DNA of 64,000 nt from Aquamicrobium aerolatum DSM 21857. Lineage in GTDB: Bacteria > Pseudomonadota > Alphaproteobacteria > Rhizobiales > Rhizobiaceae. The stretch lies in assembly GCF_900113935.1 (NCBI RefSeq), contig NZ_FORF01000006.1, forward strand, positions 62,001 to 126,000. The letters are read 5' to 3'. Position numbers and translations under genes: made by a program. Under the pieces are notes generated by a model, which was not told where the DNA came from, ran no database searches, and saw only the letters and a list, made by a program, of their open reading frames with translations. Positions 654 through 62,569 of the stretch are shown here, piece after piece (position 1 is the first letter of the stretch; each line of letters opens with the position of its first letter).

Positions 654-1070
654 ATGCTGTCTATCGGAGATTTGGCGCGCCACACCGGCGTAAAGGTTCC
701 TACGATCCGCTACTATGAGCAGCTGGGGCTGCTTGAAGCGGCGGATCGCAGTGAGGGAAATCAACGCCGCTACGAGACGACGCAGCGAGATCAGCTGGCA
801 TTCATCAAACATGCGCGAGATCTTGGCTTCACCCTGGAAGCCATACGCGAGTTGCTCGATTTAAGTGCTCATCCCGAGAGTTCCTGTGCTGGAGCAGACG
901 ACATAGCTGTACGGCAACTGGAAAATGTGCGGGACAAGATCGCGCGGTTGCGCAAACTGGAATCCGAACTTCAACGCATGGTTGGCTCCTGCTGCAACGG
1001 CGACGTGAGCGAATGCTACGTCATCCGCTCACTTGGCGATCACCATCTTTGCCACAGTGATCACGACTAG
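654..1070 (+). CDS. MerR-family metal-responsive regulator, CadR/ZntR/PbrR-like
   Basis: 138 residues. The N-terminal winged helix-turn-helix (IGDLARHTGVKVPTIRYYEQ) is canonical MerR, followed by the dimerisation helix. Cys78, Cys113/114 and Cys121 match the metal-binding cysteines of CadR (77/112/119), and the tail HHLCHSDHD is His/Cys-rich as in CadR. This predicts activation by Cd, Zn or Pb, not Cu (CueR has a different C-terminal loop). It is transcribed in the same direction as its presumed target ATPase, 72 bp upstream, with the target operator between them; the usual arrangement in this family is divergent. Start ATG 654 has GGAGA at 641-645; the ATG at 649 is out of frame. Confidence 0.9.
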   Translation: MLSIGDLARHTGVKVPTIRYYEQLGLLEAADRSEGNQRRYETTQRDQLAFIKHARDLGFTLEAIRELLDLSAHPESSCAGADDIAVRQLENVRDKIARLRKLESELQRMVGSCCNGDVSECYVIRSLGDHHLCHSDHD

Positions 1071-1082
1071 CCCTTTTGAAGC

Positions 1083-1113
1083 TTGACCCTCTAGCTACTA
1101 GAGGTCCTATCTA
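1083..1113 (+). promoter_or_regulatory. MerR-type promoter/operator of the metal ATPase gene
   Basis: A -35 TTGACC (1083-1088) and a -10 TATCTA (1108-1113) are 19 bp apart, the overlong spacing typical of MerR-activated promoters. The spacer region holds a perfect dyad CCTCTAG-CTA-CTAGAGG (1088-1104), close to operators described for PbrR/CadR regulators. It drives the ATPase gene that starts at 1143. Confidence 0.88.
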
Positions 1114-1142
1114 AGTATTCCTGTAGCTTCAGGAGAACAGAT

Positions 1143-3320
1143 ATGGACGTTTCTACGCGTCAAACCCGCTTTCGGGTCGAAGGCATGGACTGCGCCAGCT
1201 GCGCGACGAAGATCGACACGGCGGTTCGCCGAATTCCAGGTATCAATGATGTCCATGTCTCGGTCGTCGCGGGAACAATGTCCGTGGATCACGACGAATT
1301 CATCGATATGGCGGCGGTCGAGCGCAAGGCGTACAGCCTCGGCTACAAGACCACACAGATCAAAGACGAGCCGGAAAAGCGTCTATCGGGTGACAATGAT
1401 CGCGACCCGCTCGCTGGAATGCACGGGCATGACCACGGACCCTCAGAAGGCCCATGGTGGCGGTCAGCTAAATCGCGCCTGACAATCGCCTGTGGTCTGG
1501 CGCTGGGCGTAGCGTTTCTGGTCGCGCAGGCTTTTCCGCAGTCCCAGCCATGGGGCTTCATTCTCGCAATGGCCGTGGGTTTGATCCCGGTCGCGCGCCG
1601 TGCGTTCGTTGGCGCGATGAATGGCAGCCCCTTCTCAATCGAAACCCTGATGACGGTCGCAGCGCTCGGTGCGGTCGTGATCGACGCCTCCGAAGAGGCT
1701 GCCGTGGTGGTCTTTCTCTTCCTACTGGGTGAACTGCTGGAAGGCATCGCAACAGGACGCGCGCGCGCATCAATTCGGGCGCTTGGAGCACTCATGCCTA
1801 AAACGGCAATTGTCGAAACCGATGGAGTTCTAGAAACGGTCGCCGCAGACAGCCTGGCGCCCGGAACGATCACCGTTGTACGTCCCGGCGATCGTGTACC
1901 GGCCGATGGGGACGTCGTTTCCGGGGACAGTTCTGTCGATGAAGCGCCTGTCACCGGCGAATCCGTGCCAAAGCGCAAGGTTGCCGGCGACCGCGTGTTT
2001 GCCGGTACGGTCAATCAGGATGGCGTTCTGCGGATAAATGTTACCGCATCTGCGTCCGACAACACGATTTCCCGGATCATCGCTCTGGTCGAGGAGGCGC
2101 AGGAATCGAAAGCGCCGACGGAACGTTTCATTGATCGCTTCTCTCGCTACTACACCCCGGCAGTGATGATTGTGGCGTTCTTGATCGCAGTGATCCCACC
2201 TCTTGCCGTAGGAGCGGACTGGGGACCCTGGGTATATCGCGCCCTCGCCGTGCTGCTGATCGGCTGCCCGTGTGCGCTCGTGATCTCGACACCAGCAGCG
2301 ATTGCCGCAGCCCTTTCGGCGGGCGCCCGTCGCGGCCTGCTGATGAAAGGCGGTTCCGTTCTGGAAAATCTCGGCAGGGTCAATCTCGTTGCATTTGACA
2401 AGACCGGCACTTTGACCGAAGGCAAGCCCAAAGTGACCGATGTCGTTGGCGTCGATCGCGATGAGCGCGAAACCCTGCGTCTTGCAGCTGCACTTGAGGC
2501 AGGCTCAAGTCATCCACTTGCAGTTGCAATTCTTGCACAGGCCAAGGCCGACGACATTCCTGTCACGCCAGCAGAAGACGCGCGCGCCATCGGCGGCAAG
2601 GGCGTGGCAGGCGTGGTGGACGGCGTCCAGCTGTTGTTTGCGTCGCCCAAAGCCGCGAGCGAGCAGCTTAGCCTTGACCCCGAGCTTCTCGCACGTATCG
2701 CTTCTCTGAATGATGAAGGAAAAACGGTATCGGTGCTGCTCGCGGGTAGCGAAGTCGCCGGGCTCATCGGGATGCGCGACGAACCCCGTGACGATGCACG
2801 CAATGGTATCGAGGCACTACGGGAGCTTGGCGCTGATACGGTGATGCTCACCGGCGACAATGCCAGAACCGCCAAGGCGATAGGGTCTTCCCTCGGAATG
2901 CAGGTCCACGCGGAACTGCTACCACAAGACAAGCAGCGGATTGTCCGTGAAATGCGCTCTGACGGCCGGTTCGTTGCGAAGGTCGGCGACGGAATCAATG
3001 ACGCACCGGCGCTTGCAGCAGCCGATATCGGCATCGCCATGGGGGGCGGCACGGACGTCGCGCTGGAAACGGCAGATGCAGCAGTTCTGAATGGACGGGT
3101 TCGCGACGTCGCCAACATGATCGTTCTATCGCGCCTGACGATGCGCAACATCTGGCAGAACATCACCATATCGCTTGGTCTGAAGGCGGTTTTCCTCGTG
3201 ACAACGGTCATGGGCATCACCGGCCTGTGGCCTGCCATTCTGGCGGATACCGGGGCAACCGTGCTTGTCACGGCAAATGCGATGCGTCTGCTGGCATGGC
3301 GTGGCGTCCAGGAGAGCTGA
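1143..3320 (+). CDS. zntA: Zn2+/Cd2+/Pb2+-exporting P1B-type ATPase
   Basis: 725 residues; inner-membrane efflux pump for soft divalent metals. Domains in order: N-terminal HMA metal-binding domain (GMDCASC, residues 14-20), a His-rich linker (HGHDHGP, 94-100), the membrane CPC metal site (375-377), the phosphorylation motif DKTGTLTEGKP (Asp419), the SSHP motif of the N-domain, and the GDGINDAP hinge (about 615). The DTGATVLVTANAMRLL segment near the C-terminus carries the Asp found in ZntA-type (P1B-2) pumps, which favours Zn/Cd/Pb over Cu. It follows the MerR-type promoter, AGGAG precedes the ATG, and the regulator gene is directly upstream. Confidence 0.94.
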   Translation: MDVSTRQTRFRVEGMDCASCATKIDTAVRRIPGINDVHVSVVAGTMSVDHDEFIDMAAVERKAYSLGYKTTQIKDEPEKRLSGDNDRDPLAGMHGHDHGPSEGPWWRSAKSRLTIACGLALGVAFLVAQAFPQSQPWGFILAMAVGLIPVARRAFVGAMNGSPFSIETLMTVAALGAVVIDASEEAAVVVFLFLLGELLEGIATGRARASIRALGALMPKTAIVETDGVLETVAADSLAPGTITVVRPGDRVPADGDVVSGDSSVDEAPVTGESVPKRKVAGDRVFAGTVNQDGVLRINVTASASDNTISRIIALVEEAQESKAPTERFIDRFSRYYTPAVMIVAFLIAVIPPLAVGADWGPWVYRALAVLLIGCPCALVISTPAAIAAALSAGARRGLLMKGGSVLENLGRVNLVAFDKTGTLTEGKPKVTDVVGVDRDERETLRLAAALEAGSSHPLAVAILAQAKADDIPVTPAEDARAIGGKGVAGVVDGVQLLFASPKAASEQLSLDPELLARIASLNDEGKTVSVLLAGSEVAGLIGMRDEPRDDARNGIEALRELGADTVMLTGDNARTAKAIGSSLGMQVHAELLPQDKQRIVREMRSDGRFVAKVGDGINDAPALAAADIGIAMGGGTDVALETADAAVLNGRVRDVANMIVLSRLTMRNIWQNITISLGLKAVFLVTTVMGITGLWPAILADTGATVLVTANAMRLLAWRGVQES

Positions 3321-3396: not shown

Positions 3397-4812
3397 GTGG
3401 GCAACGACAAGAAACTGACAAGTCTCGGCCTGCCTGCCCTTGCATCACTGTTGCTTGAGGCAGAACCAGCCCTGGCGCACGCTTCCGATCGTGGTCACGT
3501 GCTGCTCTTGCCCACTGAGCACTATCTCGTAGGCGGCGCGATCACCGTTCTGGCCAGCTTTGTCGTCCTGGCGCTCTTGCCGGCTGCTCCACTTCATCGT
3601 GCCATGCAGCAGCACTGGAGCCTCGCCTTGCCGCTCCCTCGCGCTCGCGCGATTGTCAGCACCGCAAGCTTCGGCCTCATAATCCTGCTTGTGAGCGCAG
3701 GCTGGTTTGGCAGTCGCGATCCTCTCGCCAATCCACTGCCTTTGACATTCTGGAGTCTGATCTGGGTCGGTTTGGTGGTTCTGCAAGGCGCCGTCGGGAA
3801 TGTCTGGGGATGGATCAACCCCTGGTACGGACCATGGCGTATCGCCATGCTGTTGACGGCTCGATTGCCTAAGTCGCGAATGGCATGGCCCCGACATCTG
3901 ACAACATGGCCATCCGTGGTCGGGCTCGCCGCTTTTGTCTGGTTCGAACTCGTCGACCCTGCGCCGGATGACCCGAACCGATTGGCAAATGTGATTGCCG
4001 GCTACTGGCTCGTCACTTTTGTAGCAATGCTGATATTTGGCTATCGTCGATGGTCTGCGCGGGGAGAATTCCTGTCCGTTTTCCTTGCAATTATTGCCCG
4101 CCTGCCTGCCGTTTGCATCGGTGAACGGAAGATCGTCCTGCGACTTCCCGCTGCCGCCCTCATGAATGCGCCGCGATTGCCGCCAAGCGGAGTTGTTTTC
4201 CTGCTCCTCGCGCTGAGCTCGGTAACTTTCGACGGCTTGCGGCACACCTTCCTGTGGATGCGTGTGATCGGCGTCAATCCCCTCGAATTTCCCGGTCGCT
4301 CGGCCGTGATGCCACAAACGACTGTGGGACTTACAATCGCCTTCATGCTTCTCAGTTCTGCCTTCGTAGGCGCCATTGTGCTCGGCCATGTCTTGGCTGG
4401 CACAACGGTACCTTTGAAGCGCGCCCTGTCTTGCCTGGTGTGGACAATCGTACCAATTTCATTCGCCTACCACTTTGCGCACTATCTACCGTCGCTTTTG
4501 ATTGATGGCCAATTTGCGCTGGTCGCGTTGTCGGACCCCTTTGCGGTTGGTCAGGATTGGCTTGGTACGTCCAACTACCATGTCCAGGCAGCGCTTCTTT
4601 CGGCTGCGCAAAGTGTCTGGATACTGTGGAACGTCCAGGCTGCAACGATCGTTGCCGGCCACATCGTCGCGATCATCGCCAGCCACGTGATCGCCTGGCG
4701 GATCTACGGCGACGGACCAACTGCAATCATCACACAACTGCCGCTCGTCGTTGTGATGATTGTCTACACCGTGATCGGTCTGTGGCTTCTGTCTACGCCC
4801 ACTGCCATTTAG
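3397..4812 (+). CDS. Polytopic membrane protein, FedA-like (fenitrothion hydrolase-like) family
   Basis: 471 residues with many hydrophobic segments. The N-terminus (ASLLLEAEPALAHASDRGHVLLLP) looks like a signal or first membrane segment followed by a periplasmic face. I recall proteins with this HA-DRG/LPLP-type start being annotated as fenitrothion hydrolase-like membrane proteins, but no catalytic motif is visible and that label should not be read as a function. It starts with GTG at 3397, 76 bp after the metal ATPase on the same strand, with AGAGG at 3388-3391 only 5 bp upstream, so it may be co-transcribed with the ATPase. Its role is unknown. Confidence 0.7.
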   Translation: MGNDKKLTSLGLPALASLLLEAEPALAHASDRGHVLLLPTEHYLVGGAITVLASFVVLALLPAAPLHRAMQQHWSLALPLPRARAIVSTASFGLIILLVSAGWFGSRDPLANPLPLTFWSLIWVGLVVLQGAVGNVWGWINPWYGPWRIAMLLTARLPKSRMAWPRHLTTWPSVVGLAAFVWFELVDPAPDDPNRLANVIAGYWLVTFVAMLIFGYRRWSARGEFLSVFLAIIARLPAVCIGERKIVLRLPAAALMNAPRLPPSGVVFLLLALSSVTFDGLRHTFLWMRVIGVNPLEFPGRSAVMPQTTVGLTIAFMLLSSAFVGAIVLGHVLAGTTVPLKRALSCLVWTIVPISFAYHFAHYLPSLLIDGQFALVALSDPFAVGQDWLGTSNYHVQAALLSAAQSVWILWNVQAATIVAGHIVAIIASHVIAWRIYGDGPTAIITQLPLVVVMIVYTVIGLWLLSTPTAI

Positions 4813-5115: not shown

Positions 5116-6147
5116 ATGAGCACCCCATCAAGAAGCATATCCAGTCTCGCAAGCGTCCATACGCTGCCAAAGGCCGTTGCAGGCGGGCTGGACGAGATCC
5201 CCCGCAACCCCGGCATGGCGCTTGATCTGGGCTGGCTGGAAGATATGCGCGCCGTAAACCGTTCGGCGCTCGAACGGCGCGCAACGACGTTGACCAAGCG
5301 ACGTTCGATCAAGGCTGACAATCAGGCCGCGTGGCTGTTGCGCGCGATCAGCTTGATGGACCTGACAACGTTGAACAGCAACGACACCGCCGACCGCGTG
5401 GAACGGCTGTGCGCCAAGGCGAAACATCCGCTGCGCGCCGATCTGATCGCTGGTCTGGGGCTTGGGGACACCTTGATCCGTCCTGCCGCCGTTTGCGTTT
5501 ACCATCCATTCGTGGCGACGGCAGTGCGTGCGCTGGAAGGGACCGGTATTCATATCGCGGCTGTTTCAACCTCATTTCCGCATGGGCTGGCGCCGCTGGA
5601 GACACGCATTGCCGAGATCCGTGCGTCGGTTGCGGATGGCGCCGATGAAATCGACGTGGTGATTCCGAGGGGCCTCGTTTTTGGCGCAAGATGGCAGGAG
5701 CTTTACGATGAGGTCCGGCGCTTTCGAGAAGCCTGTGGCGACGCACATCTGAAGGTCATCCTGGGCACCGGTGATCTGGCAACCCTGCGTAATGTTATGC
5801 TTGCTTCCATGGTGTCGATGATGGCTGGCGCCGACTTCATCAAGACCTCGACCGGCAAGGAAAGCGTCAACGCCACGCTTCCTGTCGGCCTGGTGATGAC
5901 CCGCGCGATCCGCTCCTATGCCGAGCGTACCGGCTTCAAGATTGGCTTCAAACCGGCAGGCGGCATTTCGACGGCGAAATCCTCTCTCGACTGGTTGATC
6001 CTGATGAAAGAGGAGCTCGGTCGTCGGTGGCTGGAACCAGACCTGTTCCGCTTTGGCGCGTCCAGTCTGCTCACCGACATCGAGCGCCAGCTCGAGCACC
6101 ATCTGACCGGCCGCTATTCTGCGGCTCATCGCCACGCGATGGCATGA
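5116..6147 (+). CDS. deoC: Deoxyribose-phosphate aldolase
   Basis: Splits 2-deoxyribose-5-phosphate into acetaldehyde and glyceraldehyde-3-phosphate (class I, Schiff base). Seen: LTTLNSNDT near the start of the barrel, the Schiff-base region DFIKTSTGKESVNA (Lys about 243) and the phosphate/second-Lys region GFKPAGGIS. 343 residues from ATG 5116, longer than the roughly 220-260-residue bacterial short form and like the eukaryote-type long form. A TTG start at 5086 would add ten residues; AAGAG 7 bp before ATG 5116 favours the shorter protein. The next gene, 13 bp downstream, is an aldehyde dehydrogenase, which fits disposal of the acetaldehyde product. Confidence 0.95.
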   Translation: MSTPSRSISSLASVHTLPKAVAGGLDEIPRNPGMALDLGWLEDMRAVNRSALERRATTLTKRRSIKADNQAAWLLRAISLMDLTTLNSNDTADRVERLCAKAKHPLRADLIAGLGLGDTLIRPAAVCVYHPFVATAVRALEGTGIHIAAVSTSFPHGLAPLETRIAEIRASVADGADEIDVVIPRGLVFGARWQELYDEVRRFREACGDAHLKVILGTGDLATLRNVMLASMVSMMAGADFIKTSTGKESVNATLPVGLVMTRAIRSYAERTGFKIGFKPAGGISTAKSSLDWLILMKEELGRRWLEPDLFRFGASSLLTDIERQLEHHLTGRYSAAHRHAMA

Positions 6148-6160
6148 ACGGGCACGCACC

Positions 6161-8539
6161 ATGAACATTCTTGAACGATACCACGCCATGGAATACGGCC
6201 CCGCCCCAGAAGCACGAAACGAAGCTGACGCTTGGCTGGCCGGACGTGATTTCAATGCTTCGCTTTTCATAGGCGGCAGCTGGCGCAGCGCGGAAGGAAG
6301 CCGGACATTTGAGGTTCACGAACCATCGTCCGGCAAGCTGCTCGCGCGTGTGTCAGACGCCTCGAAGTCTGACATCGATGCGGCCGTTGCGGCGGCGCGC
6401 AAGGCGCAAGCTTCATGGCAGGCGTCTTCCGGCTACCAGAGAGCGCGGGTTCTGTACGCGATAGGCCGTGCGATGCAGCGGCATGCGCGGCTTTTCGCGG
6501 TTCTTGAATCGATCGACAATGGCAAACCGATCCGTGAAAGCCGGGACATCGACGTCCCCCTGGCCGTGAGACATTTCATGCACCACGCAGGCTGGGCCCA
6601 GGCGCTTGAAAGCGAATTTCCCGGACGTCAGGCTGCCGGTGTCGCAGGCCAGATCATTCCGTGGAATTTTCCCCTACTGATGCTTGCCTGGAAGATCGCG
6701 CCGGCACTCGCTGCGGGCTGCACAATCGTGTTGAAACCCGCGGAGTTTACACCGCTCACGGCGATCCTTTTCGCTGAAATCTGTGAGAAGGCTGGCGTTC
6801 CGAAGGGGGTCGTCAACATCGTTCACGGAGGCCCCGAAGCGGGCGCCGCAATCGTCAATCATCCTGGCATCGACAAGATCGCCTTTACCGGCTCGTCGGA
6901 GGTCGGCAAGATCATTCGTCAAGCCACGGCCGGCACAGGCAAGAAGCTTTCGCTTGAACTGGGTGGCAAATCCGCATTCATCGTCTTTGAAGACGCTGAC
7001 CTCGACTCTGCAGTCGAAGGACTTGTCGACGGCATCTGGTTCAATCAGGGGCAAGTGTGCTGTGCCGGCTCCCGCCTGCTGATCCAGGAAGGTATCGCCG
7101 AAGAATTTCTCGCGAAAGTGCGCGCACGCATGGAAAAGCTGCGCATCGGCGATCCGCTGGACAAGAACACGGACATCGGCCCGCTCATCGATCGTACACA
7201 GCTGGAACGTGTCTCAGGTCTGCTGGCGCAAGGTACATCTCAGGGAGCGCAGTGCTGGATGCCAGCGGGTGAAGTGCCCGCTACCGGCTGGTATCACCTG
7301 CCTGTTCTAGCAACCAACGTTGCGCCCGCTAACATTCTGGCACAAGAGGAAGTGTTCGGCCCGGTGCTGGCTTCAATGACATTCCGCAATACTGAAGAAG
7401 CGATCGAAATCGCCAACAATACTCGCTACGGGCTCGCTGCCTCCGTGTGGAGTGAGAACGTCAATCTCGCACTTCACGTCGCGCCGCAGCTCAAAGCTGG
7501 CGTGATCTGGATCAATGGCACGAACATGTTCGATGCCGCCTGCGGATTTGGCGGCTACCGCGAAAGCGGTTTTGGGCGCGAAGGTGGGCGCGAAGGCATG
7601 GCCGAATACCTCGCATGGCCAAAATCCAGAAGCCAGCCCATCAAGCCCTACGACCATCCCGGCGGCGCACTACAGCGCAACGAGGTCGAAGACGGCTTTA
7701 TAGACCGAACCCCCAAGATGTTTATTGGTGGCAAGCAAGTCCGGCCTGACGGCAATTACTCCATGGCGGTCCTGGACAAGAAGGGAAAGCAAATTGGAGA
7801 AGCAGGCGTCGGCAATCGCAAAGACATTCGCGACGCTGTCAGTGCCGCTCGCGGAGCGAAGGCGTGGGCTTCCGCAACTGCCTACAACCGAGCACAGGTG
7901 CTCTATTTTCTGGCGGAAAACCTTTCCATTCGCGCCACCGAATTTGCGGCGCGTCTTGTGCAGCTGACAGGCGTCTCTGCCAAAGCCGCCAAGGCTGAAG
8001 TCGAAGCTTCGATCGAGCGGATTTTTGCGGCGGCGGGAATGGCTGACAAGGTGGAAGGCACGGTGCACACCCCACCCGCGCGCGCCGTCACGCTTGCCCT
8101 GCATGAGCCTGTTGGCGTGCTGGGTATTGTGGCTCCTGACGAGCAGCCATTGCTGGGACTGATCGCGATGCTGGCGCCTGCGCTTGCCATGGGCAACACG
8201 GTTGTCGCAGTGCCTTCCGCACGCTGGCCATTGCTGGCAACCGATCTCTACCAGGTGATGGAAACCTCCGATCTGCCTGCTGGCGTGGTCAATATCGTCA
8301 CCGGAAAGACATCCGAGCTCGCCGCCGTTCTGGCAAAGCACGGTGACGTCGACGGTTTGTGGGTGGTGGCGGATGCCCAGACATGCGCCGCCGCCGAGCG
8401 CGAATCCGCAGACAATCTCAAACGCGTTTGGTCATCAAATGGCGCTGCCATCGACTGGGCGGCTGACGAAGGCAGCCTTAACCGTTTTCTTCAACGCGCC
8501 ATTGAGGTGAAAAACGTCTGGGTCCCCTACGGCGACTGA
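6161..8539 (+). CDS. ALDH16-family aldehyde dehydrogenase with two tandem ALDH domains
   Basis: 792 residues, about 300 more than an ordinary ALDH. The first domain is complete: substrate glutamate in SLELGGKSAF (Glu266) and nucleophile in FNQGQVCCAGSRL (Cys300). The second domain (about 515-792) keeps the Rossmann-like ALDH pattern (PVGVLGIVAPDEQPLLGL, LPAGVVNIVTG) but has no catalytic cysteine motif. This is the layout of the ALDH16 family, in which the second domain is non-catalytic and structural. With deoC directly upstream, the natural substrate may be acetaldehyde or another product of deoxynucleoside breakdown (inference). No strong ribosome-binding site was found; expression may depend on coupling to deoC. 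Confidence 0.9.
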   Translation: MNILERYHAMEYGPAPEARNEADAWLAGRDFNASLFIGGSWRSAEGSRTFEVHEPSSGKLLARVSDASKSDIDAAVAAARKAQASWQASSGYQRARVLYAIGRAMQRHARLFAVLESIDNGKPIRESRDIDVPLAVRHFMHHAGWAQALESEFPGRQAAGVAGQIIPWNFPLLMLAWKIAPALAAGCTIVLKPAEFTPLTAILFAEICEKAGVPKGVVNIVHGGPEAGAAIVNHPGIDKIAFTGSSEVGKIIRQATAGTGKKLSLELGGKSAFIVFEDADLDSAVEGLVDGIWFNQGQVCCAGSRLLIQEGIAEEFLAKVRARMEKLRIGDPLDKNTDIGPLIDRTQLERVSGLLAQGTSQGAQCWMPAGEVPATGWYHLPVLATNVAPANILAQEEVFGPVLASMTFRNTEEAIEIANNTRYGLAASVWSENVNLALHVAPQLKAGVIWINGTNMFDAACGFGGYRESGFGREGGREGMAEYLAWPKSRSQPIKPYDHPGGALQRNEVEDGFIDRTPKMFIGGKQVRPDGNYSMAVLDKKGKQIGEAGVGNRKDIRDAVSAARGAKAWASATAYNRAQVLYFLAENLSIRATEFAARLVQLTGVSAKAAKAEVEASIERIFAAAGMADKVEGTVHTPPARAVTLALHEPVGVLGIVAPDEQPLLGLIAMLAPALAMGNTVVAVPSARWPLLATDLYQVMETSDLPAGVVNIVTGKTSELAAVLAKHGDVDGLWVVADAQTCAAAERESADNLKRVWSSNGAAIDWAADEGSLNRFLQRAIEVKNVWVPYGD

Positions 8540-8572: not shown

Positions 8573-9223
8573 ATGAACGATGTGGTTCTCCATAATTACT
8601 TCCGCTCGTCGACGTCCTATCGGGTGCGCATCGCCCTGGCGCTCAAGGGCGTTGAATATACCTATGTCGCCCATCATCTGCGGCATGGTGCACATCGTGA
8701 AGCCGGCTATCTTGCGATCAATCCGCAAGGACTGGTGCCAACCCTGATCTGGAACGACGGAACAACAATCGCTCAGTCGCTGGCGATCATGGAGTTTCTC
8801 GATGAGGAGGTGCCGGAACCACCTCTCCTGCCCGCCGACGCTGCAGGGCGAGCGCGCGTTCGTATGCTGGCACAGATGATCGCGTGCGATATCCATCCGG
8901 TGAACAATCTGCGGGTTCTTGACCGGCTACGCAGCCGCTACGGCGCAGACGATGTTGAGATCGCAGATTGGTTTCGTCACTGGGTCAATGAGACTTTCCG
9001 CCCTTTGGAGCAGTTGCTGGCGGAAAGTGCGCACACGGGCATGTTCTGCCATGGTGACGCGCCCGGCATGGCAGACATTTGTCTGGTCGCTCAGGCGACC
9101 AACAATGCGCGCTTCAACGTCGATATGACGCTGTATCCGACGATCTGTCGGATACGCGATGCATGCCTGGAACTCGACGCTTTCGTAAGCACCGCCCCAG
9201 CACGGCAGCCAGACGCGGAATAG
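8573..9223 (+). CDS. maiA: Maleylacetoacetate isomerase (zeta-class glutathione S-transferase)
   Basis: 216 residues. The GST zeta signature SSTSYRVRIALALKG (residues 12-26) holds the catalytic Ser and glutathione-activating loop, and INPQGLVPTL is the cis-Pro thioredoxin-fold motif. It isomerises maleylacetoacetate to fumarylacetoacetate in tyrosine/homogentisate breakdown. No hmgA or fahA is in the window, so the pathway partners lie elsewhere. It lies 33 bp downstream of the ALDH16 gene, with GGGAGGAAACG before the ATG, probably in the same transcript. Some zeta GSTs also act on other maleyl or chlorinated acids. Confidence 0.88.
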   Translation: MNDVVLHNYFRSSTSYRVRIALALKGVEYTYVAHHLRHGAHREAGYLAINPQGLVPTLIWNDGTTIAQSLAIMEFLDEEVPEPPLLPADAAGRARVRMLAQMIACDIHPVNNLRVLDRLRSRYGADDVEIADWFRHWVNETFRPLEQLLAESAHTGMFCHGDAPGMADICLVAQATNNARFNVDMTLYPTICRIRDACLELDAFVSTAPARQPDAE

Positions 9224-61459: not shown

Positions 61460-62569
61460 ATGGCCGATACGGGCTCAGGCGACCTTTTGAAATTGCCACT
61501 GAACGAACTGCACGAGGCGGCTAAAGCGCGCTTTGGTGGGTTTGCTGGCTGGAACATGCCGATCACCTATCCGCTGGGCGTGTTGAAGGAACACCTTCAC
61601 ACCCGCGAGAAGGCTGGCCTCTTCGATATTTCCCACATGAAGCTCATAGAGGTGAGCGGTGGCGAGGCAGCCAAGGCACTTGCCCGCGCCTGCCCCTTCG
61701 ACCCTGAAGCGTTGGCCCTCGGTCAGTCCAAATACACCTTCTTGCTCAATGAGAAGGCGGGAATCTCGGACGACGTCATCGTAACCCGTGTAGCTGAAAC
61801 ACGCTTCATCGTTGTCGCAAATGCCGGAAATGCCGCCGCCGACGTGGCTCATCTGAGCGCCGTTGCAGCGGAATTCAATTGCGTCGTTGACCCGCTCGAT
61901 CGTGTGCTTTTCGCACTGCAGGGTCCTGCCGCTGAAGCGGCGCTCACTGAAGCTGGCCTCGATCTTTCGCACCTGACATTCATGCAGGGTGTCGAGCCGA
62001 AAACGGGCTGGTTCGCCACCCGCTCAGGCTACACTGGCGAAGACGGTTTCGAGATCGCCATGCCGATCCCGGAAGCCAGGGAATTTGCCGACAAGCTGCT
62101 CGCAAATGAAAACGTCGCATGGGTTGGTCTCGCTGCGCGCGACAGCCTGCGTCTTGAAGCCGGCCTGTGCCTTCACGGCAACGACATCACGCCAGACACC
62201 AACCCCGTCGAAGCTGGCCTGATGTGGGCAATCGCCAAGCCGCTGCGCGAGACGGGCACATTCATCGGGGCCGACGCCTTGCGCGCCGCAATCTCTCAGG
62301 GTGCGGCCCGCAAGCGCGTTGGTCTGAAGCCTGAAGGCCGCGCACCGGTTCGCGATGGCACCCCCCTCATCGACGCAGACGGAAAAACCGTCGGCGAAGT
62401 CACCTCCGGCGGCTTTGGTCCCTCAGTCGGGCACCCGGTCGCCATGGGCTACGTTGATACAGAACCCGCGCAGCCCGCAACTGAAGTTTTCGCAGAAGTA
62501 CGCGGCAATCGCGTGCGTCTGGCAGTTCACCCTCTTCCCTTCACGCCGCATCGCTACCGCAAAGGATAA
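61460..62569 (+). CDS. gcvT: Glycine cleavage system T protein (aminomethyltransferase)
   Basis: 369 residues. [13 protein letters not shown] (folate/substrate site), [23 protein letters not shown] and [17 protein letters not shown] are the family blocks. It moves the methylene group from lipoyl-H protein to tetrahydrofolate and frees ammonia. First gene of gcvT-gcvH-gcvP, under the glycine riboswitch. Confidence 0.97.

Follow-up and report, generated by a model that had tools for sequence, protein, structure and literature searches.

Introduction

Systems of the DmpFG kind are physical complexes of an aldolase and a dehydrogenase, in which acetaldehyde is channelled from one enzyme to the other through a tunnel. 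The two-domain aldehyde dehydrogenase (ALDH) of the ALDH16 family from Loktanella was reportedly found to be active by Liu and Tanner in 2019, and to our knowledge the physiological substrate of ALDH16 proteins is unsettled. In the Loktanella protein, the C-terminal domain helps to build an unusual dimer (available part of PMC8160307). DeoC and an aldehyde dehydrogenase (AldDH) have been proposed to break down deoxyribose phosphate in SPU microcompartment loci (PMC4207490, in the portion available), and a kinase/aldolase pathway for deoxyribose (DeoK, DeoC) has been described in Paraburkholderia and Burkholderia (accessible text of PMC6365646). Here, we describe a pair of adjacent genes, deoC and ALDH16, in a stretch of 64,000 nucleotides from Aquamicrobium aerolatum DSM 21857 (positions 62,001–126,000 of contig NZ_FORF01000006.1), which is called the window below. 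The analysis suggests that DERA-type deoxyribose-5-phosphate aldolase probably has in ALDH16 its own dedicated, NAD-dependent acetaldehyde dehydrogenase.

The pair resembles the SPU loci in that DeoC is accompanied by an aldehyde dehydrogenase, but the SPU AldDH, unlike ALDH16 in the role suggested here, is proposed to form acetyl-CoA inside a shell (same portion of PMC4207490). No shell genes were seen among the annotated neighbours of the pair, although no search was aimed at them. Compared to the tunnel complex of DmpFG-like systems, the coupling between deoC and ALDH16 is known from genes alone. In the open-licence literature (titles and the beginnings of abstracts), no link of ALDH16 to deoC or DERA was found among the matches listed, and the accessible parts of PMC4334477, PMC5359404, PMC9007349 and PMC8346489 contain nothing bearing on the pair. 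Three elements go beyond the initial annotation of the window: the deoC is of the human DERA type, ALDH16 is absent from those sampled genomes whose deoC is solely of the other type, and the C-terminal domain of ALDH16 is a separate gene in most genomes of one phylum sample.

Results and discussion

ALDH16 and long deoC occur together

In the window, deoC (5116–6147; ATG at 5116, stop codon ending at 6147) encodes a protein of 343 residues and is followed, after an intergenic gap of 13 bp (6148–6160), by the gene of a 792-residue ALDH16 (6161–8539; ATG at 6161, stop codon ending at 8539). Both genes and the features within them are on the forward strand. The boundaries of the open reading frames (ORFs) at 6147 and 6161 confirm the arrangement described in the initial annotation, a long deoC and a 792-residue ALDH 13 bp apart.

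Two samples of Pseudomonadota, a class sample of 289 genomes and a phylum sample of 299, were searched with the window DeoC and with the C-terminal domain of ALDH16 (encoded by 7673–8536), a query that ordinary ALDHs match weakly. In the class sample, the C-terminal domain was found in 29 genomes with E-values of 7.5e-79 or better, the next match being at 2.0e-28, and a close DeoC match (57% identity or more) was also found in 29. The two sets are identical. A further 44 class genomes contain a weaker DeoC match alone (E 2.9e-48 or worse, most starting at query residue 60–76, the lowest-scoring of which may not be deoC at all), and none of them carries ALDH16. The phylum sample repeats this pattern, with identical sets of 27 genomes and 44 genomes that have a weaker deoC (E 1e-20) only and no ALDH16. 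The union of the paired genomes of both samples is 51. The pairing is thus the rule in the surveyed genomes, and the window pair exemplifies a conserved module. The survey of deoC–ALDH16 adjacency that the initial annotation had suggested as a check has therefore been run, and it found the pairing to be exclusive in both samples. Chance adjacency was rejected because of the identical presence sets.

Apart from the window's own locus, the class sample has 28 loci with ALDH16. Its immediate upstream neighbour, on the same strand, is deoC in 27 of them; in the 28th, ALDH16 is cut by the end of a contig and its start is found right after deoC on another contig. The gap between the two genes ranges from −4 to 309 bp with a median of 8 bp in the 27 measurable relatives, given start codons picked by alignment and gene calls that are mechanical longest-ORF calls. 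Families f1, f17 and f53 each hold both states, the pair or a weaker deoC only, so the pattern does not go back to a single inheritance event. One genome (G051) has a deoC–ALDH16 pair plus a separate nucleoside operon with a short deoC (loci L040 and L157).

The trees of the two proteins agree (Mantel r 0.89, a value reached in none of 999 permutations), with a contribution from shared species history. The DeoC tree has 48 strong splits and the ALDH16 tree 50, of which 30 are shared. These trees leave out 10 incomplete or broken loci.

The other type of deoC has no aldehyde dehydrogenase nearby

The class sample has 46 places with a weaker, mostly short-type deoC match, and for comparison stretches of 7–13 kb around 40 of them were examined. 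In 25 of these stretches, deoC sits between PNP and deoA, the slot that the long deoC occupies in its fullest operons. No ALDH match at E 1e-12 was found in any of these 40 stretches, and a general habit of deoC to associate with ALDH was rejected on this basis. In two of the loci (L182 and L184), deoC is visible only within a longer ORF labelled cdd. DeoC of the Escherichia coli type has the same fold as the window DeoC but is missing its N-terminal extension, its matches beginning near window residue 60–76. The long deoC and its ALDH16 have the appearance of a cassette taking the place of the short deoC: two kinds of deoC can fill the same operon slot, and only one of them brings its own aldehyde dehydrogenase.

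Features of the DeoC and ALDH16 proteins

The window deoC encodes a predicted DERA-type deoxyribose-phosphate aldolase. Its product scores 151.5 bits against the NCBIfam deoC model TIGR00126 (cut-off 117.3), and its AlphaFold model (mean pLDDT of 86.3) matches E. coli DERA (PDB id: 1jcl) with a TM-score of 0.89 by target length. The putative Schiff-base lysine K243 (codon at 5842–5844), which we take to correspond to E. coli K167, is conserved in all 99 rows of the alignment of paired loci, as are K279 and D180; the catalytic lysines and aspartate were assigned on the assumption of E. coli numbering. The alignment holds 98 distinct loci, since one named-species locus and one class-sample locus (L111 and L045) are the same; likewise, the 108 ALDH16 loci discussed below are 107 distinct ones. 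The region matching E. coli DeoC is preceded by the N-terminal extension (residues 1–71, encoded by 5116–5328). Residues 31–71 of this extension are moderately conserved, with R55, R62, R63, K66 and Q70 present in 98 of the 99 rows and a gap in one.

The window ALDH16 has the layout of its family, a complete ALDH domain followed by a truncated ALDH-like second domain with a length of about 800 residues, and its residues 1–791 align onto residues 2–766 of the solved Loktanella ALDH16 (PDB 6MVR–6MVU; 6mvr at E 1.9e-276, 922 bits), which has the same two-domain layout. A closer relative of the Loktanella structure was found in the survey, namely the ALDH16 of locus L065, which matches 6mvr at 1262 bits and has a deoC 114 bp upstream. 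The first domain is complete: N169 (codon at 6665–6667), K192, E266, the general base (6956–6958), and C300, the catalytic cysteine (7058–7060), are invariant both in an alignment of 28 ALDH16s that includes the window protein and in the 99-row set. Glu266 and Cys300, which the initial annotation had pointed out, are thus confirmed together with N169 and K192. Residues 11–236 of the second domain align onto residues 30–247 of the first domain of the same protein, which makes the second domain a copy of the NAD-binding half only. The catalytic cysteine is indeed absent from it, as had been noted, but so is any counterpart of the entire E266/C300 region.

In the substrate pocket, every one of the 99 rows has F170, L173, M174, W177, V299 and F463, and 96 have F294. 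The first four presumably match the pocket residues of ALDH2. V299, immediately before the catalytic cysteine, falls at what we take to be the position of a phosphate-binding arginine in GAPN (ALDH11); a valine and not an arginine in every row places ALDH16 outside the GAPN group. The NCBIfam profiles name no substrate for ALDH16, none of the models reaching its cut-off among the matches listed (25 of 42).

In a tree of N-terminal ALDH domains, 102 fused ALDH16s and 35 from loci in which ALDH16 is split (described below) form one group against 12 ordinary ALDHs chosen by match (split support of 1.0). An earlier version of this tree, in which there were six ordinary sequences including ORFs of 19–20% identity, had not separated ALDH16 cleanly from the ordinary ALDHs.

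Operon settings in named species

A scan of 84,980 species genomes gave at least 578 confirmed candidates, the best 80 of which were analysed as named loci. Their titles include Mesorhizobium, Aminobacter, Bradyrhizobium, Caballeronia, Variovorax, Simiduia and the SAR324 cluster, as well as Phaeodactylibacter, Cyclobacteriaceae, Puniceicoccaceae, Verrucomicrobiota and Chloroflexota, and the pair is kept in named loci of five phyla. By script, deoC was placed upstream of ALDH16 on the same strand in 73 of the 80. One more locus (L106) has the last 105 codons of deoC upstream of ALDH16 and then the end of the contig, and five loci without a scored upstream deoC (L117, L122, L126, L137 and L141) begin at contig edges. 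Apparent gaps near or above 1 kb were found in three of the 73. In two of these (L070 and L128), the ALDH16 frame is broken beside deoC by sequencing error or decay; in the third, deoC and ALDH16 are set apart by a 405-residue ORF with a weak cyclase match (L130:808–2025). Two diverged deoC–ALDH16 pairs are found in one chromosome of Mesorhizobium sp. AR07 (L074 and L146).

Two operon settings recur among the 107 distinct loci. Nucleoside genes are found near ALDH16 in 25, the fullest order being Bmp–ABC transporter, PNP, deoC, ALDH16, deoA, deoB, add. A PfkB-family kinase is found near ALDH16 in 22, where it is accompanied by an RbsD/FucU mutarotase (19 loci), a DeoR-type regulator (17) and ABC sugar-transport genes (19). 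No locus has both nucleoside genes and the kinase. All four elements of the second setting occur with the pair on an annotated Caballeronia plasmid. The order deoC–ALDH16–RbsD/FucU–kinase of the Caballeronia loci resembles the DeoK/DeoC route of Paraburkholderia and Burkholderia (accessible text of PMC6365646), and the order on pSymB of Sinorhizobium meliloti 1021, read by ORF comparison, is DeoR–deoC–ALDH16–RbsD/FucU. The main text of PMC6365646, its figures being outside this count, contains the words "aldehyde dehydrogenase" zero times. The profile of the PfkB kinase says ribokinase, but its context points to a deoxyribokinase; a deoxyribokinase with a deoxyribose mutarotase has been annotated in Azospirillum (PMC3899980, in the part available). 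The step common to the nucleoside and kinase settings is the cleavage of deoxyribose 5-phosphate.

ALDH16 is split into two genes in a third sample

A further phylum sample of 395 genomes, that of a genome titled Rhodothermaceae metagenome-assembled genome (MAG) (G290, the genome of locus L106), represents Bacteroidota by our reading. A deoC match at E 1e-20 was found in 79 of these genomes and the ALDH16 C-terminal domain (E 2.7e-40 or better) in 72, all of which fall within the 79. One of the 72 (G900) has a low deoC score that results from a deoC cut across two contigs. In 66 of the 72 genomes, the C-terminal domain occupies a reading frame of its own of 288–414 residues, and in the other six it is fused, as it is in the named Bacteroidota loci L116, L129 and L139. 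Regions from 40 of the 79 deoC genomes, chosen for breadth, were compared. The order deoC, ALDH (about 500 residues), C-terminal domain (about 290 residues) is found in 33. The rest comprise two regions in which the genes are spread over about 11 kb, three with a fused ALDH16, one with the C-terminal domain on another contig (G577) and one with deoC alone (G744). In two regions (L216 and L236), the genes co-occur although they are separated.

The single-domain ALDHs of split loci keep the catalytic N, K, E and C in 35 of 35 cases. Split and fused N-terminal domains form one group each (support of 1.0 and 0.973, respectively). As ordinary ALDHs are single-domain proteins, the split state is the simpler reading of the ancestor and calls for one fusion; a later fission is possible. 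A stand-alone gene for the ALDH16 C-terminal domain was not found described among the open-licence papers listed, although no dedicated search for it was made. Such a gene offers a natural way to ask what the C-terminal domain does. A gene family of about 200 residues (e.g. L197:4430–5095), a representative of which has a weak SPOR-domain match, is present in 25 of the 40 loci and adjoins the stand-alone C-terminal domain in the loci inspected.

Human DERA and ALDH16A1

Human relatives of both partners exist. The human sequences compared here are provisional, and the values that follow refer to these provisional versions. DERA is 54–64% identical to 27 long DeoCs of the class sample and 54–66% identical to 73 of the named loci (293–431 bits), compared to 29–40% (97–155 bits) for the 40 weaker-type DeoCs. 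This DERA sequence is placed inside the long DeoC group with a support of 0.80 (one inner node has 0.36), and its closest pairing, with a support of 0.97, is with the DeoC of a locus titled Chloroflexota MAG (L132). The provisional ALDH16A1 is 32–42% identical to the ALDH16s of the 108 bacterial loci, with medians of 38%, and its four catalytic positions are taken up by T, P, A and a gap.

The human pair is therefore like the bacterial one in its membership, while ALDH16A1, unlike bacterial ALDH16, is missing the catalytic residues. It has been described as a pseudoenzyme lacking the entire catalytic triad, associated with gout and proposed to interact with HPRT1 (PMC10650815, in the portion available). 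The gout and HPRT1 reports fit a nucleoside setting and prove nothing. In the accessible part of PMC10879545, ALDH16A1 and DERA are both merely listed in a table. It is one of at least four open-licence papers that mention both, and no functional link between the two human proteins was found among the papers listed. Because human DERA and ALDH16A1 are relatives of the two bacterial partners, ALDH16A1 is a candidate partner of DERA. Given its split form and its human parallel, the pair merits direct tests.

A proposed role of ALDH16 and its alternatives

Gene context lends good support to the view that ALDH16 takes a product of the DeoC reaction as its substrate. In the pathway that we propose, deoxynucleosides would be converted to deoxyribose 5-phosphate via PNP/DeoA and DeoB, and deoxyribose would reach the same intermediate via the mutarotase and the PfkB kinase. 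DeoC would cleave deoxyribose 5-phosphate into glyceraldehyde 3-phosphate and acetaldehyde, ALDH16 would oxidise acetaldehyde to acetate, and Acs would convert acetate to acetyl-CoA. The C-terminal domain would be non-catalytic and would complete the ALDH16 assembly; in the Bacteroidota sample, most genomes would provide it in trans. Acetaldehyde is predicted as the substrate from context and pocket residues, and we infer the direction of the reaction and the role of the C-terminal domain. The suggestion in the initial annotation that the operon gives a clue to the role of ALDH16 is strongly supported by the exclusive pairing and by the deoxynucleoside and probable deoxyribose settings, while its choice of acetaldehyde keeps the standing of a prediction. 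The pairing with DERA points to acetaldehyde clearance in the breakdown of DNA sugar and suggests where to seek the human role. With a partner that is exclusive in two bacterial samples, the question of the ALDH16 substrate comes down to a few direct tests.

Several observations weigh against this role. Besides the predicted nature of the substrate, 60 of the 107 distinct loci have, like the window, neither nucleoside genes nor a kinase, which is partly an effect of contig edges. The ALDH16 tree contradicts six strong splits of the DeoC tree. In the locus titled Candidatus Roseilinea (L127), deoC and ALDH16 are truly separated, the long deoC being on another contig. In the Bacteroidota sample, the ALDH16 C-terminal domain is missing from seven of the 79 genomes with a deoC match (deoC at E 4.6e-62 or worse); the closest of them, G744, has a deoC of 47% identity (E 4.6e-62). 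Finally, deoC as such needs no ALDH, as the 40 weaker-type loci show, and the proposal gives no reason why the DERA type alone would.

An alternative is that the substrate of ALDH16 is a phosphorylated pathway aldehyde, either glyceraldehyde 3-phosphate, in a GAPN-like bypass, or deoxyribose 5-phosphate. Such a function would be served by the same operons and the same pathway, and glyceraldehyde 3-phosphate is the other product of DeoC. F170, M174, W177, F463, V299 and F294, however, resemble what we take to be the pocket of ALDH1/2 and not the presumably arginine-lined one of GAPN, and the NCBIfam models listed are below their cut-offs and name no substrate. This substrate class is unlikely, and GAPN-like chemistry was rejected given the pocket residues and the universal V299. 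Detoxification of a side product of the aldolase (e.g. 3-hydroxybutyraldehyde) or of mixed short aldehydes, with acetaldehyde not the main one, would explain why ALDH16 is tied to one type of aldolase, as DERA enzymes are said to condense acetaldehyde. It is quite unlikely: sequence evidence for it is lacking, and the direct product needs a sink first. Bacterial ALDH16 might also serve DeoC chiefly in a structural or regulatory way, the kind of role proposed for the human pseudoenzyme, with its chemistry being secondary. The fact that it pairs exclusively with a single type of DeoC in two samples, the retention of a large non-catalytic C-terminal domain even as a separate gene and the loss of the catalytic residues in human ALDH16A1 would all agree with this, but the residues are kept in all 99 fused rows and all 35 split ALDHs and the Loktanella enzyme is reportedly active, so that a mainly non-enzymatic role is very unlikely.

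It is extremely improbable that deoC and ALDH16 are mere neighbours carried together with no shared function. The agreement of the trees (Mantel r 0.89 and 30 shared strong splits) is what joint transfer would give, but the presence sets are identical in 289 and 299 genomes, families hold both genes or neither, and the two co-occur despite being separated (L127, L216 and L236). A more specific version of the partnership is possible but doubtful. Here, DERA-type DeoC and ALDH16 would form a physical complex in which acetaldehyde is passed on directly, with the conserved DeoC extension and the ALDH16 C-terminal domain serving for docking and a three-part assembly in Bacteroidota; animals would have inherited both proteins, and ALDH16A1 would have kept docking, lost catalysis and come to regulate DERA. 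DeoC residues 31–71 and the C-terminal domain are candidate parts of such an interface. Were this true, the breakdown of (deoxy)nucleosides would be what connects ALDH16A1 with urate and gout, to which it is reported to be linked.

Genomic surroundings of the window pair

No kinase or phosphorylase is present among the identified genes flanking the pair, in agreement with the initial annotation, which had seen no deoxyribokinase or phosphorylase gene adjacent; a genome-wide deoxyribokinase search was not made. The window's genome (3.64 Mb) contains one deoC-family match and three acetyl-CoA synthetase matches above cut-off, and an ABC transporter, cdd, PNP, deoA, add and deoB are found together on another contig. 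Although no phosphorylase gene adjoins the pair, the genome thus carries genes that lead from deoxynucleosides to acetyl-CoA.

Downstream of the pair, a maleylacetoacetate isomerase gene, maiA (8573–9223, match above cut-off), starts 33 bp past ALDH16. Two of the 80 named loci (L070 and L085) have a maiA homologue, the 28 class loci have none, and maiA is probably not part of the deoC–ALDH16 module. A 471-residue ORF directly upstream of the pair (3397–4812) matched no Pfam or NCBIfam family. Further upstream, at 654–3320, are genes for a regulator of the MerR type and for a Zn/Cd-type heavy-metal P-type ATPase.

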